Shown: in pieces, positions 4,115 to 23,880 of the stretch
How the letters are laid out: each line of letters starts with the position of its first letter
Numbering within the stretch: position 1 is the first letter of the stretch
IMG/VR virus record: IMGVR_UViG_3300028384_001457
Location: 1 to 24,229 of that record
Direction: 5' to 3' (one strand)
DNA: 24,229 bases
Source: a virus
The notes under the pieces: model-generated
Database searches by the model: none
The model's input: the letters and a program-made list of their open reading frames with translations, nothing else
Told to the model about the DNA's origin: nothing
Translations under genes and position numbers: made by a program

Positions 4115-4244
4115 TTATAATCTCGCTTGCTTTGTGCTTCCATACATTTGGAAATAATCCATGTACAAAACAAACAAAGGACAATGTCCACGCCCTCTGT
4201 AGATGTTGAAAGTATGTCATATTCTCTTCTTCAAGATGACTCAT
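4101..4244 (-). CDS. 47-residue DUF6356-like mini protein
   Basis: A small frame that fills the gap between the alternative oxidase and ligase-like genes. It starts with ATG at 4244, 14 nt inside the oxidase gene, and ends 14 nt inside the next gene. The protein begins MSHLEEENMTYFQHLQRAW, then LSFVCFVHGLFPNVWKHKAS. The order N-M-T-Y-x-x-H-(x)-A, a short hydrophobic stretch, then HGLFP and a basic K-A-S matches small proteins I recognise as DUF6356, found in marine bacteria and phages. The hydrophobic segment (about residues 19-31) may dip into the membrane. Tight overlaps on both sides argue it is real. Function unknown; the position next to a membrane-bound oxidase may or may not be meaningful. 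Confidence 0.6.
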   Translation of the reverse strand: MSHLEEENMTYFQHLQRAWTLSFVCFVHGLFPNVWKHKASEIINAKV

Positions 4245-4809
4245 TTGCGTACCTTAAATTGGCCTGACTATGACCACGTTCGTCTTCTCTTATGTATTTA
4301 ATCATATCAGATAGTTTAGCATCAGGTAACATATTATAGTATTCTTTTGCAATTTCTGGTGCATCAACATTCTCAATATTACCGGCTTCAATCTCAGCCA
4401 AATAATCTGTGTAGCTTCTAACTGCCTCTTCCTCGAAGTATGCAATTGTAAGATGTGCAGTACGTGGCGATATTAGATACAAGAGTAAGTAATAATGCCA
4501 AAACACCATCTGCGCTACAATAATAATAAAACGTTCGAGTGCAGTCGGATGAACGATTTCCATAAAGAACATTAAATGCTTACGTTCATTTTCGGCTTCG
4601 GCTAACAACTCATGAATCTTATGACCATTACCTCGTTGCAATCGTCGAAGACTCTTTAGATGTGTTAGCATACCACCGATCATGCCGGGTACACCGGCAA
4701 CAGTCTCGAGTACAAGTGCTCTTTGGCCGTACTTCTTACGAAAGAAAGTATCGGCAAAAAAGCGAAAGAATTTAGTCTGACTCTGGGCGAATAGGTTGCG
4801 TTTCTTCAT
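4231..4809 (-). CDS. aox: Alternative oxidase (ubiquinol:oxygen oxidoreductase, di-iron)
   Basis: A 192-residue di-iron carboxylate protein of the AOX/PTOX family, which reduces O2 to water with electrons from ubiquinol without pumping protons. All ligand motifs are present: LETVAGVPGM (E35), NERKH (E75, H78), FEEEAV (E126-E128) and REDERGH (E177, H180). The two E-x-x-H spacings match known AOX. Hydrophobic stretches at about 93-113 fit the membrane-facing helices of this monotopic enzyme. It is short because it lacks the N-terminal extension of mitochondrial forms. The start overlaps an upstream lipoprotein gene by 38 nt, and no earlier in-frame ATG is needed for the family core. It probably keeps electron flow or redox balance going in the infected cell. 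Family call is firm; physiological role is inference. Confidence 0.9.
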   Translation of the reverse strand: MKKRNLFAQSQTKFFRFFADTFFRKKYGQRALVLETVAGVPGMIGGMLTHLKSLRRLQRGNGHKIHELLAEAENERKHLMFFMEIVHPTALERFIIIVAQMVFWHYYLLLYLISPRTAHLTIAYFEEEAVRSYTDYLAEIEAGNIENVDAPEIAKEYYNMLPDAKLSDMIKYIREDERGHSQANLRYANESS

Positions 4810-12305: not shown

Positions 12306-14042
12306 CTACATATTGACAGCTAAAATAGGATGCTGAAATTCTATATCGGCTTGCTTTAGCTCTTCATAGTCACGATGTATATCTATATGACGATATTTTC
12401 TACGGGCATTTTCTTCTTTTAAAACTTGATGATCTAACTTTACAAAACTAATGTAGTGTTGATGAGATAGATTATTAGGTTGACAAAGTATTTGATGCCA
12501 TCCTTCTTCTGCAAATTTTAATTCACCAGTATTATAGAGCTCGAACACATTTTGAGGATTAAACTGATCAGCTTTATGAATTATCATAAAATCACGAAGA
12601 CAAGTGTTTACATGTGGTAACATAATTTCTTCGTGGGCATGCCGCGGATCTAAAATATCAATTAGCTTTCTTGTAAAATGATGAAAACCTAATACAATAT
12701 TTTCATTATATGCTTTAGATATAAGAGCAGGAAGAACCTCAGCCAGTTCAGGCTGTGGCTGCGTATCATATCTCATGCGTATGACAATATCATGATCATC
12801 AATAAAATCTCTATACGCCATAGCATAAGCTAACTGCTGTTTGTTTTGATTTGCAAAACCTTTTCTATTGTTTATCACTGACAGTAAATTATGTTTCGCA
12901 GTTTCTACAGATCCAGACATAGATGAATCATTTTGCCATTTTTCTGGCAAGGCCGTAAGATCCCAATCTGAATCTCTAAATTTTCGATATATGCTAATAT
13001 ACTTTCTTATGACATCTCGCGATGAATTTAAAACAGCAGGCTCCTCATGATATCGATTAATATATGGTTTAGCAGGTTGGCCTGTCCATGACGTACAAAA
13101 GATATCAGCTTCAGGTAGCATTTCCCGCATAGCCTTAATATTTTTTTCTGGAAATGCTTCTGACTGCCGAGGTAATCTACCACTAAACAACACAGCTACT
13201 TTTAATTTTTTTTCTAGTATAGGATAATCAGGAAAATCAGTTTGCTTGAACATCAAATCTTTTCTTGTTTCTACAGGTCTATCTGCAACAAATTTTATAT
13301 CTGTAACTTTAAATGGTGGATTAAAATAAGATTTGATACCGGGTCTGAGTAAATCACTTGTTAATTTTATATGACCTTCCCAGCAGGCAGCTGGTTTCTT
13401 TTTATAGGCTTCGCATAACATTTGCCACCATCCTGATTCACCACCTTGTAATCTTTTTTGATTATGTAATTCTTCCATATAATCAATGTCAAAACGAGAT
13501 GCATGATGAATGATCAAACAGTCACCGAAATGCTGAGTAAGTTGAGGATCGAAGCTTTCACTGTTATTAGGTAAAAAACAAACAGGTCTCTTTGAATTTG
13601 CTACTGTCTCAGTATAGGTAAGTAAACATTCTAGGAGTTTATTTCCCCATTCTAAATCCCATCTAAATCGCATAATCACTGGATATTTTCTATCCAACTC
13701 ATTATGCTTTATCATTCTGCCGTGAATTAGAATTTGTTTAGATCTATGTTTACCTTTGGATCGCTCACGCAAAGATGACTCATATCTTTCTTTTTCTTGA
13801 CCTGAGACACCTTCGCGCAGTTTTTGAATGGCTACTTCATGTTGTTCTTTATATGGATTATAATGCATATCAACATCAGGAAAAAAATCAATCCAATCAT
13901 GTTGTTTTTGATTTTCGTGTTCCCAAGCACCATAATATATGTCGTAACACTCGCCAAATGAATTTTCTATTCTTTGTTTAATTTCTTCAGGATTTTTTGG
14001 CAGTAAACCTGATACTACGATAGCAGCTTTTGTTCTCTTCAT
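12306..14042 (-). CDS. Two-domain glycosyltransferase-like protein (internal duplication)
   Basis: A 578-residue protein made of two copies of one domain (about 4-240 and 280-545). Shared landmarks: KAAIVVSGLLP / KVAVLFSGRLP at the start; CYDIYYGAW / EADIFCTSW; an R-x-R-x-D site, IMRFRWD (123-129) and VIRMRYD (420-426); and a G-W pair, SGWW (203-206) and EEGWH (512-516). The next gene upstream is a third copy. Each copy opens with a beta strand and ends strand 2 with W, and the RxRxDT motif resembles the TDT/DxD site of WavE-type glycosyltransferases. No membrane segment. ATGA overlap with the upstream copy. It probably decorates a surface glycan; activity and fold are inferred. Confidence 0.6.
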   Translation of the reverse strand: MKRTKAAIVVSGLLPKNPEEIKQRIENSFGECYDIYYGAWEHENQKQHDWIDFFPDVDMHYNPYKEQHEVAIQKLREGVSGQEKERYESSLRERSKGKHRSKQILIHGRMIKHNELDRKYPVIMRFRWDLEWGNKLLECLLTYTETVANSKRPVCFLPNNSESFDPQLTQHFGDCLIIHHASRFDIDYMEELHNQKRLQGGESGWWQMLCEAYKKKPAACWEGHIKLTSDLLRPGIKSYFNPPFKVTDIKFVADRPVETRKDLMFKQTDFPDYPILEKKLKVAVLFSGRLPRQSEAFPEKNIKAMREMLPEADIFCTSWTGQPAKPYINRYHEEPAVLNSSRDVIRKYISIYRKFRDSDWDLTALPEKWQNDSSMSGSVETAKHNLLSVINNRKGFANQNKQQLAYAMAYRDFIDDHDIVIRMRYDTQPQPELAEVLPALISKAYNENIVLGFHHFTRKLIDILDPRHAHEEIMLPHVNTCLRDFMIIHKADQFNPQNVFELYNTGELKFAEEGWHQILCQPNNLSHQHYISFVKLDHQVLKEENARRKYRHIDIHRDYEELKQADIEFQHPILAVNM

Positions 14043-14833
14043 AATATGTGTTCGTTTCCTACAGTACTAAAGCATATAGATGCGATTTGATTAGGATTAC
14101 TTCGTAGTGTAACTATTCCATTCCAACATGTTCCCATGCATGTTTGTGGTACATCTTGATCTCTTATAAGTGTATCATACCACCCATTTTCAGCCCATCT
14201 GATTTCTTTATCAGCGTACTTTTGTAATGCTAAATCAGGATTAAACGTTTTTGGATTGTATGCTATGAGCCAATCTGATAAGCCTTCTGACGCATCTGAT
14301 GTGTACTTATTCCACCCAAGTGCATGTTTCTTATAATCCGCGTCGATCGTTTCAAATCCAATTGGCTTTTTATGCTCTAACACCATGTCCATAAGTGTTA
14401 AAAACATCTTTTTATATTGTGTATCAATATGAGTATCAGGTCTAACACGAAGAACTAAATCATAATCTTTATCGCGAACAAAATCGTTATACATATAGAT
14501 ATGACTTAAAAACTGCTTTACGTTATGAAATTTTCTGCGTCTACTTACTGAAGATATATCTGATATATCTTTTGGATGATATGGTCGACCTTCTTCTTTG
14601 GCCTTTCTCATCATTTCAATTGTTACTTCTATATGTGCTTTTCCACAGTGATAGTGAGGATGAGGCTCGTCATAATATACATGAAAGCCTACTTCGTTAC
14701 TTCTTTGATCTGGTCTATCCCATGTACCTAAAAATATATCAGCTTCTGGAAATATCTCTCTCCAAGTCTCATAATTTTCGCGAATATCCATGTCTTCTGT
14801 TATAAGACCGCTACATAATATTGCTACTTTCAT
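14039..14833 (-). CDS. Single-domain glycosyltransferase-like protein
   Basis: A 264-residue protein homologous to each half of the following gene: MKVAILCSGLI at the start, FPEADIFLGTWDRP (28-41), YDLVLRVRPDTHID (124-137) and RWAENGWYDTLI (212-223). The intact RPDT makes it the best candidate for a metal and sugar-nucleotide site; its relatives downstream have RWDL and RYDT. The middle VKQFLSHIYMYNDFV is a conserved helix also recognisable in the copies (KQQLAYAMAYRDFI). Both ends are ATGA overlaps, with the HAD gene before and the two-domain protein after. WavE or exostosin-like enzymes are the nearest families I can name; unproven. Confidence 0.6.
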   Translation of the reverse strand: MKVAILCSGLITEDMDIRENYETWREIFPEADIFLGTWDRPDQRSNEVGFHVYYDEPHPHYHCGKAHIEVTIEMMRKAKEEGRPYHPKDISDISSVSRRRKFHNVKQFLSHIYMYNDFVRDKDYDLVLRVRPDTHIDTQYKKMFLTLMDMVLEHKKPIGFETIDADYKKHALGWNKYTSDASEGLSDWLIAYNPKTFNPDLALQKYADKEIRWAENGWYDTLIRDQDVPQTCMGTCWNGIVTLRSNPNQIASICFSTVGNEHIL

Positions 14834-15432
14834 ACGGATATTTTGGCCGAAATTTCTTTTAGATTTATAGTTTGATATTCTGTTTGAAGTACATGAGCCT
14901 GTGATAGATAGGCCGCTTCGACACCTTGTGGTGAATCTTCAATAATAAGTGTATCTGTAGGATCTACGCCAATAGTTTTCATTGCTTTTAAATATATTTC
15001 TGGATGAGGCTTAGGAGTTACAACATCATCAGATGAAAGTACGATAGAAAAACAATTTCTTATCTTAGCTTTACGTAGACATGTATTAACAGCCATTTCA
15101 TTACTATTGCTGCATACACCGAGTTCATACTTTGTCACGAGTGAATTACAAATATCGATAATTCTTTGTTCGGGTTGTATATCATTAAGAAGAGTTTGAT
15201 AGCATTCGTCTTTCATGTTTTTAATATCACGATGTAAATGAACAGGCAAACCTTTCGCAGATGTTAACATCTTAAGTTTCTTTTCTGTCTTCTTCCCTTC
15301 GTAATGCATTCTCTCATCAGCAGAAATTACATACTTTGATGAGTAATGTTCGAGCGCCATATTCAAGGCTTTATAATGCAGAGTAACAGTGTCTACAAGG
15401 ACACCATCCAGATCAAACAATATAAGCTTCAT
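14830..15432 (-). CDS. HAD-superfamily phosphatase
   Basis: A 200-residue HAD hydrolase of the beta-phosphoglucomutase/phosphatase subgroup. Motif I is LFDLDGVLVDT (4-14, nucleophile Asp6 and acid/base Asp8), motif II is GVCSNS (Ser/Thr that binds phosphate), Lys in TPKPHPEIY is motif III, and TLIIEDSPQGVEAA holds the motif IV acidic pair. A helical cap lies between I and II. Its start overlaps the sugar nucleotidyltransferase by 20 nt, and its stop overlaps the glycosyltransferase start. It probably dephosphorylates a sugar or polyol phosphate in the same pathway. Confidence 0.8.
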   Translation of the reverse strand: MKLILFDLDGVLVDTVTLHYKALNMALEHYSSKYVISADERMHYEGKKTEKKLKMLTSAKGLPVHLHRDIKNMKDECYQTLLNDIQPEQRIIDICNSLVTKYELGVCSNSNEMAVNTCLRKAKIRNCFSIVLSSDDVVTPKPHPEIYLKAMKTIGVDPTDTLIIEDSPQGVEAAYLSQAHVLQTEYQTINLKEISAKISV

Positions 15433-16138
15433 TCATTTCTTCCTGATATAATTGTAAATCACGAGGAGTGCCAATTAGCCAAACGTTATCGGTGACATCG
15501 TATGGTACAATCTTCTTATTATCTTGTATCATCTCATTATATACAAGACTTACGTAGAATTCACCCTTCGCTCTTATATTTTTTTGCATCATCTGTTCAG
15601 CGTACTTCACGAAGTCTGATCCACGACTAAAAATATAAATTCCAACCGTTGCATCATTACTGATAACTTCTTTTTCTGCCGTGCGAGTGACAACACCATT
15701 CTCTACTTCTATATATGATGACTTTGGATCATCATCCTCATACGTAAGTATAGCGCCGTCGGCATCACCCATTGTTTGAATAAAATCTGCCCAAGACCAA
15801 TCAAGAACTTGATCACAGTTAGCGATGATAAGTGGACTATTATTATTGATAAAAGGTTTTGCAAGAAGCGCAGACTGAGCTGGTCCTTCGGTGAGATGAT
15901 CTACTTCTATAATATTACAATTACTACAAAGAGAATGAAGTAAACCATCTACATCGAACTCATCTCTTTGTTCTTCACGTACGATAAAATGATGTGTGCC
16001 ATTAATGCCGAGAGTTTCGACTGCACACTCAATCATTGTTCTACCATCGACTGGAATAAATGGCTTTGGAAGATCAAAACCTTCTTTTGCAAAACGGCTG
16101 CCAGCACCAGCCATAGGAATCACGACATTTATATTCAT
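15413..16138 (-). CDS. Sugar nucleotidyltransferase (NTP_transferase family)
   Basis: A 241-residue enzyme from the ATG at 16138, chosen because it makes an ATGA overlap with the upstream stop; a TTG start at 16162 is also open. INVVIPMAGAGSRFAKEGFDLPKPFIPVDGRTMIE carries the G-x-G-[ST]-R-x(6-10)-P-K-P signature that binds NTP, ANCDQVLDW the metal-binding acidic residue, TEGPAQSALLAKP the product-site loop. It should form an NDP-sugar or CDP-polyol from a phosphorylated substrate. Beside a HAD phosphatase and glycosyltransferases this supplies activated precursor for a surface glycan. Substrate cannot be told from sequence alone. Confidence 0.8.
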   Translation of the reverse strand: MNINVVIPMAGAGSRFAKEGFDLPKPFIPVDGRTMIECAVETLGINGTHHFIVREEQRDEFDVDGLLHSLCSNCNIIEVDHLTEGPAQSALLAKPFINNNSPLIIANCDQVLDWSWADFIQTMGDADGAILTYEDDDPKSSYIEVENGVVTRTAEKEVISNDATVGIYIFSRGSDFVKYAEQMMQKNIRAKGEFYVSLVYNEMIQDNKKIVPYDVTDNVWLIGTPRDLQLYQEEMNEAYIV

Positions 16139-16617
16139 TGTGTGTAAAAATGCTCCGCCCAATCAGTACATATTCCCCAGAATCTGGAGGTGTCAGTATT
16201 ATTTATCTCAGGCATAACAGCTACTGCTTTTGCTGCTAGCCTTGGAGGCAATTCTATACCAACATTTGCCCAAAGTACACCGCGAGATGTCATCGTAAAA
16301 TCATCGCTTTCATGCCAAAAAAAGTTAAGGTCTTGACCCGGACTCTGCATCTCTCTTCGTTGTAATCTCAAGAGTGCTTCATGATTTTTACAGTGAATCC
16401 ATAAGAAGTTACGGCGTGTGTGTAACCACTCATAATCGATCTTATATTGTGGTTCATCATGACCTAACCAATATGTGCCGTTGACGATACGTAGATCTAC
16501 CTCTACGTTCATCATATATGCTGATATAATTTTATCGATATGCTTTGGATGATTTTCTATTTCTTCATCGCGACCATTCAAATTCCCTCTATGAGAGATT
16601 ACCATCATATGATTCAC
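16135..16617 (-). CDS. Glycerophosphodiester phosphodiesterase-like (GDPD/TIM-barrel) protein
   Basis: A 160-residue protein: VISHRGNLNG matches the first GDPD strand with the catalytic HRG, and NVEVDLRIVNGTYWLGHDEP matches the second (E-x-D metal ligands, then G-H-D with the second catalytic His). At 160 residues it is shorter than full GDPD enzymes (about 240), with later barrel strands compressed (FLWIHCKN, GVLWANVG, FWGICTDW), so it may be a minimal relative. Start is GTG at 16617 (GTGA overlap with the preceding stop) or ATG at 16608 with GGTG 6 nt upstream. It heads the glycan gene set. Confidence 0.65.
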   Translation of the reverse strand: MNHMMVISHRGNLNGRDEEIENHPKHIDKIISAYMMNVEVDLRIVNGTYWLGHDEPQYKIDYEWLHTRRNFLWIHCKNHEALLRLQRREMQSPGQDLNFFWHESDDFTMTSRGVLWANVGIELPPRLAAKAVAVMPEINNTDTSRFWGICTDWAEHFYTQ

Positions 16618-22423: not shown

Positions 22424-22855
22424 TCAGTCCTCTGTTAGCAATTGTTTTCCAATGGGAATTTTGCGAGGACGCTTTTCTTCTGGAAGTTCTACTTTCAGGT
22501 CAATGACTAGTAGACCATTCTTGAAGTCAGCTCCATCCACTACAACGTGTTCGGACAGACGGAACGTTCGTGTGAATCTCTTTGTAGAGACTCCTTTGTG
22601 CAGGTATTCTACATCACTTTTAGGCGGTTCACCTTTGATGATGAGTATCCCCTCCTTCAACTCTACTTCAATCTCGTCCTTCCCGTAGCCAGCTAAAGCT
22701 AGTTCGATACTATACTCTGTCTCACTGTGCTTGACTACGTTGTGCCTCGGGTATGTATTATCACCAACTTGTTGCAGCTTAGTGATCTCATCCCAGAGGT
22801 GGTCGAATCCGATAAAGCTAGAGGTAGGGAACGTAAAATGTTTAGTCGTAACCAT
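22424..22855 (-). CDS. Hsp20 (alpha-crystallin) small heat-shock protein
   Basis: A 143-residue IbpA-type chaperone from ATG 22855 (MVTTKHFTFPTSSFIGFDHLW), chosen for the AAGGAG about 10 nt upstream; a longer frame to 22912 would enter the tmRNA region. The alpha-crystallin domain runs from about 33 to 122: YSIELALAGYGKDEIEVELKEGILIIKGE, RFTRTFRLSEHVVVDGADFKNGLLVIDL, with the A-x-x-x-N-G-L-L signature. Small Hsp20s are common in T4-like marine phages and are thought to hold unfolded proteins during virion assembly. TATAAATA 60 nt upstream suggests late transcription. Together with tmRNA this forms a protein quality-control pair. Confidence 0.92.
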   Translation of the reverse strand: MVTTKHFTFPTSSFIGFDHLWDEITKLQQVGDNTYPRHNVVKHSETEYSIELALAGYGKDEIEVELKEGILIIKGEPPKSDVEYLHKGVSTKRFTRTFRLSEHVVVDGADFKNGLLVIDLKVELPEEKRPRKIPIGKQLLTED

Positions 22856-22917
22856 AGTGGTTTTCTCCTTTTTTATTAAGCAAGAATTATGTGACCCGAT
22901 TATCGGCATCACGCACC

Positions 22918-22925
22918 TATTTATA
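22918..22925 (-). promoter_or_regulatory. T4-type late promoter box before hsp20
   Basis: TATAAATA on the minus strand is a perfect match to the T4 late promoter octamer. It lies in the loop of a 6-bp hairpin (GCACCT...AGGTGC, 22913-22932) near the 3' end of the tmRNA coding piece, so it could give a separate hsp20 message with a leader of about 55 nt. Confidence 0.55.
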
Positions 22926-22968
22926 AAGGTGCCTCGTTTGGCGACGAGGTGAGGCAGACCTCGCGGGA

Positions 22969-23013
22969 TTAGGCAGCTAGTGCGAAATCACCGTAGTAGT
23001 TGTCATCGTTTGC
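22969..23013 (-). other. tmRNA tag reading frame
   Basis: The frame GCA...TAA encodes ANDDNYYGDFALAA and stop. It starts with the AND resume sequence and ends with the ALAA degron read by ClpXP and related proteases. It follows AAAAATAGTT, close to the bases before the E. coli resume codon. Confidence 0.95.
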
Positions 23014-23101
23014 AACTATTTTTGTTTGACCCTGTTTAACGTCAGCATCATTGACGATTCTCCACTTGCTTTCAGTCGCCCGTCGAATCCATTACGCCCC
23101 C

Positions 23102-23185
23102 ATCATAAGCTGACTCTGAAACTTGGGAGTCTATCTCCAAGTACAACCCAACACTAGACCCATGTAAGATTGCGAGTCAGCTTAT
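23102..23185 (-). repeat. tmRNA intervening segment bounded by a 12-bp inverted repeat
   Basis: ATAAGCTGACTC (minus strand 23185-23174) and GAGTCAGCTTAT (23116-23105) are perfect reverse complements that bracket the segment between acceptor and coding pieces. The first A of the left arm is the last base of CCA. A second hairpin (CTTGGAG...CTCCCAAG with one bulge) lies inside. The repeat would extend the acceptor stem and hold the precursor together before cleavage. Confidence 0.85.
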
Positions 23186-23243
23186 GGTGGAGGCGGGCGG
23201 AGTCGAACCGCCGTCCGCACTTCCTAATACAAGCTTCATCGAA

Positions 23244-23360
23244 TTAGTTATTTATTTTTTCGTAGTAATCTCTTTCACATTTACCACTACAAAACTTAGC
23301 GAAGATAATGACTGCAGTAAACAGCTTACCACATCCTTCACACTTACGCTTCTCCGCCAC
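23244..23360 (-). CDS. 38-residue Cys4 (zinc-binding) mini protein, GTG start
   Basis: The frame begins with GTG at 23360, 9 nt after GGAGG in the end of the peroxiredoxin gene, and overlaps that gene by 17 nt. It reads MAEKRKCEGCGKLFTAVIIF, then AKFCSGKCERDYYEKINN. C7-x2-C10 and C24-x3-C28 form a treble-clef-like or zinc-ribbon-like Cys4 site, with basic residues next to the first pair. The stop lies right before the tmRNA acceptor region. Such mini zinc proteins often bind nucleic acid or protein partners; function here is unknown. Confidence 0.65.
   Translation of the reverse strand: MAEKRKCEGCGKLFTAVIIFAKFCSGKCERDYYEKINN
23249..23256 (-). promoter_or_regulatory. Putative late promoter before tmRNA
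   Basis: AATAAATA on the minus strand, inside the last codons of the Cys4 mini gene. With T4-type spacing, RNA would begin near 23243, just ahead of the acceptor piece. Confidence 0.4.
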
Positions 23361-23880
23361 TCTTAAGAGCCTCCAAAATATTTTGTGGTGATGTCTCTCC
23401 GTAGGGATCATCTTTAGCGTTATGTGCTCGCCCGGGTTCTTCGAACCATTCAGTTACCTCGCCATTTTTTACGACCATTGCGTAGCGCCATGATCTCTGA
23501 CCAAAACTAAGATTATCTTTCGATACGATCATATTCATGCCGATTGTAAAAAGACCAGATCCATCAGGAATGAGTTTCACGTTTTCAAGATTATTGGCCT
23601 TACCCCATGCATTCATAACAAAGCTGTCGTTTACTGATAGACAATAGATATCGTCAATTCCTAGTTCATAAAACTCAGGTGCTAAACGTTCAAAATCTGG
23701 TAATTGGAATGTTGAGCACGTCGGTGTAAATGCACCGGGCAAAGAAAAAACTAAAACATTACGACCTTTGAAGATCATATCAGTTGTAAGTTCTTCCCAT
23801 CGATATGGATTGTCACCTTCTATTGAATCATCTCTTACACGAGTATTGAATATAAGAGTTGGAACGGTCATTCCCTTCAT
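23344..23880 (-). CDS. Peroxiredoxin, Prx5 type
   Basis: A 178-residue thiol peroxidase that reduces H2O2 and organic peroxides. VLVFSLPGAFTPTCS holds the peroxidatic Cys55 in the P-x-x-x-T-x-x-C motif, preceded by the Prx fold strand. Cys80 lies 25 residues later, the same spacing as Cys47 and Cys72 of human PRDX5. There is no C-terminal resolving Cys, so it would act as a 1-Cys enzyme or use glutathione or glutaredoxin. GQRSWRYAMVVKNG carries the catalytic Arg. AGGAG lies 6 nt before the ATG (MKGMTVPTLIF). A phage antioxidant enzyme beside Hsp20 and tmRNA suggests a stress block. Confidence 0.92.
   Translation of the reverse strand: MKGMTVPTLIFNTRVRDDSIEGDNPYRWEELTTDMIFKGRNVLVFSLPGAFTPTCSTFQLPDFERLAPEFYELGIDDIYCLSVNDSFVMNAWGKANNLENVKLIPDGSGLFTIGMNMIVSKDNLSFGQRSWRYAMVVKNGEVTEWFEEPGRAHNAKDDPYGETSPQNILEALKSGGEA

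Follow-up and report, generated by a model that had tools for sequence, protein, structure and literature searches.

A complete, circularly permuted two-piece tmRNA gene in a T4-like phage genome fragment

Bacteria use tmRNA to free stuck ribosomes and to mark unfinished proteins for destruction. Two-piece versions of this RNA are already known from aquatic phages: a survey of 18,146 phage genomes identified 53 two-piece tmRNAs, 50 of them in samples of marine or aquatic origin, and considered that they might sustain hijacked translation or recycle host protein (Buchholz et al. 2022, PMC9004378), and the phage entries in the tmRNA database number 79 (PMC11915505). We found matches to the Rfam model for permuted tmRNA (RF04321, tmRNA_permuted) in T4-like phages of Stenotrophomonas, Xanthomonas and Methylophilales. 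Three of the permuted tmRNAs (L073, L074 and L076, in phages DLP6, Marzo and X1) belong to T4-like phages of Gammaproteobacteria, hosts that are expected to have one-piece tmRNA; the tmRNA is annotated in the Marzo record but not in those of DLP6 and X1. The preliminary description of the locus studied here called a permuted tmRNA in a phage unusual; with 53 such phages published (PMC9004378), it is no new kind of finding. Rather, the locus adds another member, and a well-resolved one, to the little-studied phage-borne two-piece tmRNAs.

The window, meaning the whole stretch of DNA that we analyzed, is an entire IMG/VR virus record of 24,229 bases and a fragment of a T4-like phage. In accordance with the phage context proposed earlier, it carries a T4-like DNA polymerase, UvsX and helicase, and the deposited phages nearest to it in UvsX are C48C1 (66%) and phages of Xanthomonas and Stenotrophomonas (57–61%). 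Elsewhere in the window, positions 4231-4809 (-) weakly match phrog_4235, a phage plastoquinol terminal oxidase (E 4e-4), and may encode an alternative-oxidase-like auxiliary metabolic gene, and glycosyltransferase-, HAD phosphatase- and nucleotidyltransferase-like frames, judged by translation, lie amid the replication genes at 12306-16162 (-).

ARAGORN called a permuted tmRNA at 22878-23277 (-) with the tag ANDDNYYGDFALAA as the sole RNA gene in the window, and RF04321 matched positions 22969-23245 (-) at 107.9 bits (E 1.6e-20) against a gathering score of 47. The model of ordinary tmRNA, RF00023, matched in two parts, with model positions 236-374 at 23290-23185 followed by positions 1-139 at 23101-22960. 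Since these halves occur in swapped order, the acceptor piece precedes the coding piece, which is the permuted layout. When the Rfam subtypes were included, the window was reported under RF04321 and RF00023 only. Judged from its sequence, the window carries a complete, circularly permuted two-piece ssrA gene, as the preliminary description had claimed. The limits given there, 22911-23243, were close to the limits supported here, about 22930-23245 (-), and the 317-nt precursor has a fold z-score of -4.7.

The anatomy described earlier (a 7-bp acceptor stem with G3-U70, a T arm, an encoded CCA and a tag) was borne out by direct reading of the sequence and by the ARAGORN tag (Table 1). The acceptor stem, GGGGGCG/CGCCUCC, comprises 7 bp and includes G3-U70, and the T stem, GGCGG/CCGCC, closes the loop UUCGACU. 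The 5′ end of the acceptor piece, AUUCG-N-UGAAGC, is kept in 11 related phage tmRNAs. Within the spacer, an outer helix formed by UAAGCUGACUC and GAGUCAGCUUA adjoins the acceptor stem with 10 of 10 positions paired, and the predicted fold places further hairpins inside it. A pseudoknot 5′ of the tag, PK1, was read by eye. Because a scan near the tmRNA gene found no intrinsic terminator, the 3′ end of the tmRNA is inferred.

Table 1. Features of the tmRNA locus in the window, and copies of the tRNA-like element in related records (coordinates prefixed with the record).
Feature	Coordinates	Strand	Basis
Hsp20 gene, downstream of tmRNA	22424..22867	-	PF00011, phrog_432
T4-late-promoter-like site TATAAATA, 5 bases downstream of tmRNA, ahead of hsp20	22918..22925	-	comparison with relatives
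Coding piece (acceptor 5′ strand GGGGGCG, D-loop, P2 5′ strand, tag frame, pseudoknot)	22930..23101	-	RF00023 1-139; RF04321; 3′ end predicted
H-type pseudoknot 3′ of tag: S1 GCGAGGU/ACCUCGU, S2 UGCCUC/GAGGCA	22930..22964	-	S2 pairing in most relatives
Tag frame ANDDNYYGDFALAA, resume codon GCA, stop TAA	22969..23013	-	ARAGORN
Spacer, 83 nt	23102..23184	-	between acceptor and coding pieces
Acceptor piece (P2 3′ strand, T arm, acceptor 3′ strand, discriminator A, encoded CCA)	about 23185..23245	-	RF04321 alignment; RF00023 236-374
Possible 38-aa four-cysteine ORF, between peroxiredoxin and tmRNA	23244..23360	-	translation; stop codon overlaps acceptor piece start
Peroxiredoxin gene, upstream of tmRNA	23344..23880	-	PF08534, phrog_2281
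Element inside tmRNA spacers	L055:10321-10416, L067:224-319, L125:1979-2074, L126:143-238		
Element starting at or a few bases from phage tRNA ends	L115:259-358, L130:2808-2909, L136:1005-1111		
Element alone, upstream of tmRNA	L092:5673-5771, L114:6254-6352, L118:8443-8541		

To place these features among relatives, we gathered further loci above the model cut-off from uncultivated phages and four deposited phages, and compared the structures of 17 distinct phage tmRNA sequences together with the window, 18 in total. All seven pairs of the acceptor stem, with U70 opposite G3, are formed in all 18, and pairs 4–7 covary; the T stem has 5 of 5 pairs in 17 of the 18. The P2 pairing survives a switch from A-U to U-A in most relatives, and the pseudoknot that follows the tag is likewise present in most of them, with an S2 that varies in sequence and mostly still pairs. 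In every one of the 18 sequences, 9–10 of the 10 pairs in the spacer's outer helix are formed, compared with 7.3 when strands of different phages are cross-paired and 5.4 in shuffled spacers. Tag lengths in the relatives (10, 12, 13, 14 and 15 residues) differ by whole codons and remain in frame, and the tags keep an AND (at least AN) start and an AA end, with the exception of Xanthomonas phage X1, whose ARAGORN tag ends in YA. At the level of sequence, the comparison thus establishes the anatomy of the phage tmRNA together with its conservation and covariation.

From this anatomy we infer expression, processing, charging, tagging and a benefit to the phage. A single precursor RNA would fold such that the spacer forms a hairpin stacking onto the acceptor stem. 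Host tRNA-processing enzymes would excise this spacer, and an acceptor piece of ∼61 nt would remain joined to a coding piece of ∼172 nt via the acceptor stem and P2. The host alanyl-tRNA synthetase would charge this RNA via G3-U70, and host SmpB and EF-Tu would deliver it to ribosomes stalled on broken mRNA, where ANDDNYYGDFALAA, whose last residues, ALAA, form a ClpXP-type signal, would be added to the stalled products and host proteases would become involved. With mRNA being degraded during infection, such a tmRNA could keep ribosomes free for phage proteins. A phage smpB gene, a search for which the preliminary description had suggested, was not found (PF01668) in the 24-kb window or in 14 related records (15 in total, most of them fragments), so the tmRNA probably relies on host SmpB. 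The phage C48C1, among the closest deposited phage genomes, is without a permuted tmRNA, and the gene would therefore be non-essential in this phage type.

The RNA could instead act mainly by binding host SmpB and EF-Tu, thereby blocking or competing with host trans-translation rather than tagging productively. Mycobacteriophage DS6A provides a precedent, since it has a tRNA-like domain only and a molecule of this type inhibits the host's tmRNA (PMC4131195; PMC11915505), and the failure to find SmpB in those 15 records, mostly fragments, would also fit. However, tag frame, resume codon, stop, degron-like end and pseudoknot have all persisted as the sequences diverged, and a decoy would need none of them, which makes this reading improbable. 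We consider it highly probable, on sequence grounds, that the ssrA of this T4-like phage is a working two-piece trans-translation RNA that uses host factors and has probably passed from phage to phage.

The surroundings of the gene bear on this passage between phages. In relatives with 94–97% identical Hsp20, the alignment to the window reaches base 22925, and the tmRNA is absent from that place. In the phage record G002 (L055) the tmRNA lies ∼7 kb from the hsp20-side place, behind a phosphatase-like gene, and G049 (L067) shares those upstream neighbors. Since the tmRNA occupies a different place in these relatives, the gene has moved within this phage group. In the window as well as in G002, the tmRNA start touches the stop codon of the frame before it. 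Promoter-like sites of the form TATAWATA occur at the same place as that of the window in L002 (TATAAATA) and in L055 and L004 (TATATATA), and judged by count alone such sites are not above chance in the window. As a separate observation, an abiF RNA (RF03085) is located directly 5′ of a phage tmRNA in L050 (1772-1809 (-), 50.8 bits) and in L097 (1783-1819 (-), 56 bits).

The closest tmRNAs are those of G049 and G002, which are 90% and 83% identical to that of the window and carry the tags ANDDNYYGDYALAA and ANDDYYQDYALAA, respectively; other phage tmRNAs are 68–72% identical. In both genomes the tmRNA adjoins the phosphatase-like gene (HAD-type by translation), whereas that of the window lies between peroxiredoxin and hsp20. 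A blastn search of the whole tmRNA against 50,697 phage records returned no match, and the coding piece alone gave weak partial matches only, so the family model was needed to find relatives. Plasmids yielded short matches only, a degenerate pattern for the exact tag hit no other viral contig, and neither of two exact patterns of the 5′ coding segment hit a cellular genome when one genome of each bacterial species was scanned. Scores against the Rfam subtypes are mixed among the near relatives, with L098 passing the alpha cut-off (53.6 versus 50) and L055, L067 and L092 scoring as beta below the cut-off, and therefore indicate no single cellular lineage. The preliminary description had taken the gene to be a capture from a host with permuted tmRNA; its nearest relatives are instead phage tmRNAs, and permuted tmRNA occurs in gammaproteobacterial phages as well. 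The gene may have been captured from an alphaproteobacterial host of this phage, but most likely it moved from one related phage to another and was not acquired anew from the phage's own host.

That the gene is a recently captured host copy without a selected role, a passenger or an integration-site leftover, would accord with the use of bacterial ssrA as prophage integration sites (PMC9004378) and with its differing position among related phages, but is very unlikely given that the gene is complete and not a fragment, that the two exact-pattern scans, covering one genome for each bacterial species, gave no cellular match to its 5′ coding segment, and that it is kept in related phages despite 10–32% sequence drift. 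Because the gene shifts place in related T4-like genomes yet retains its structure and tag frame, ribosome rescue looks selected rather than passively captured.

The spacers of some relatives hold a tRNA-like element of ∼100 nt (UUGAUCU...AAGAUC, a variable hairpin and a T-arm-like GUGGG...AUCCCAC), present as one copy per record and composed of stems resembling an acceptor stem and a D arm, a shrunken anticodon hairpin, and a further hairpin resembling a T arm. Besides the copies at phage tmRNAs and tRNAs (Table 1), it occurs in or near tRNA arrays of other uncultivated phages. Across 14 aligned copies the covariation score is 0.48, whereas shuffles give 0.14 and slid versions no more than 0.12. 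Seven loci outside the model building match at 40–69 bits, having been found beforehand with a pattern from the same motif. Short versions resemble tRNAs whose anticodon hairpin is reduced, three of which ARAGORN identifies as tRNAs. Searches against Rfam returned no family for the element at E below 0.5–1, and blastn of three copies against deposited phages found none. The covariation supports an element family, absent from Rfam. The G002 and G049 spacers both contain the element, while that of the window does not: treated as a decayed copy, it scored 2.4 bits, which gives that idea no support. Kinship with the T4 stable RNAs rnaC and rnaD was also considered and dropped, as the element model (R1) had no match in T4. 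We tentatively suggest, at less than even chances, that in the close relatives the excised spacer is a tRNA-like RNA, such that tmRNA maturation would set free another functional RNA, with the spacers of phage tmRNAs acting as docking sites for such elements. The comparison raises the question of why phage tmRNA precursors retain long structured spacers, some with a tRNA-like RNA.

Among described systems, the Methylophilales phage Melnitz and the pelagimyophages (PMC9004378) resemble the window in having a permuted tmRNA in a T4-like aquatic phage, with an RF04321 match, a tag ending in ALAA and a long spacer with an outer helix. Unlike the window, in which Rfam found no riboswitch, Melnitz carries a glutamine riboswitch at the 3′ end of its tmRNA (PMC9004378), and its spacer is 142 nt rather than 83 nt and its gene lies in another genomic place. 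The spacers of Melnitz (L075) and L053, of 142 and 151 nt, each contain an open frame that has a ribosome-binding-like site and extends into the coding piece; for the Melnitz frame, no homologue was found beyond the four Melnitz isolates. Stenotrophomonas phages DLP6 and Marzo and Xanthomonas phage X1 likewise are T4-like, with a permuted tmRNA and a UvsX related to that of the window. In contrast to the window, DLP6 and Marzo score above the cut-off for beta_tmRNA (RF01850), and their tags, which end in IAA, and their spacers differ from its own. With the cellular families alpha_tmRNA (RF01849), beta_tmRNA and cyano_tmRNA (RF01851), the window shares gene order and the tRNA domain.
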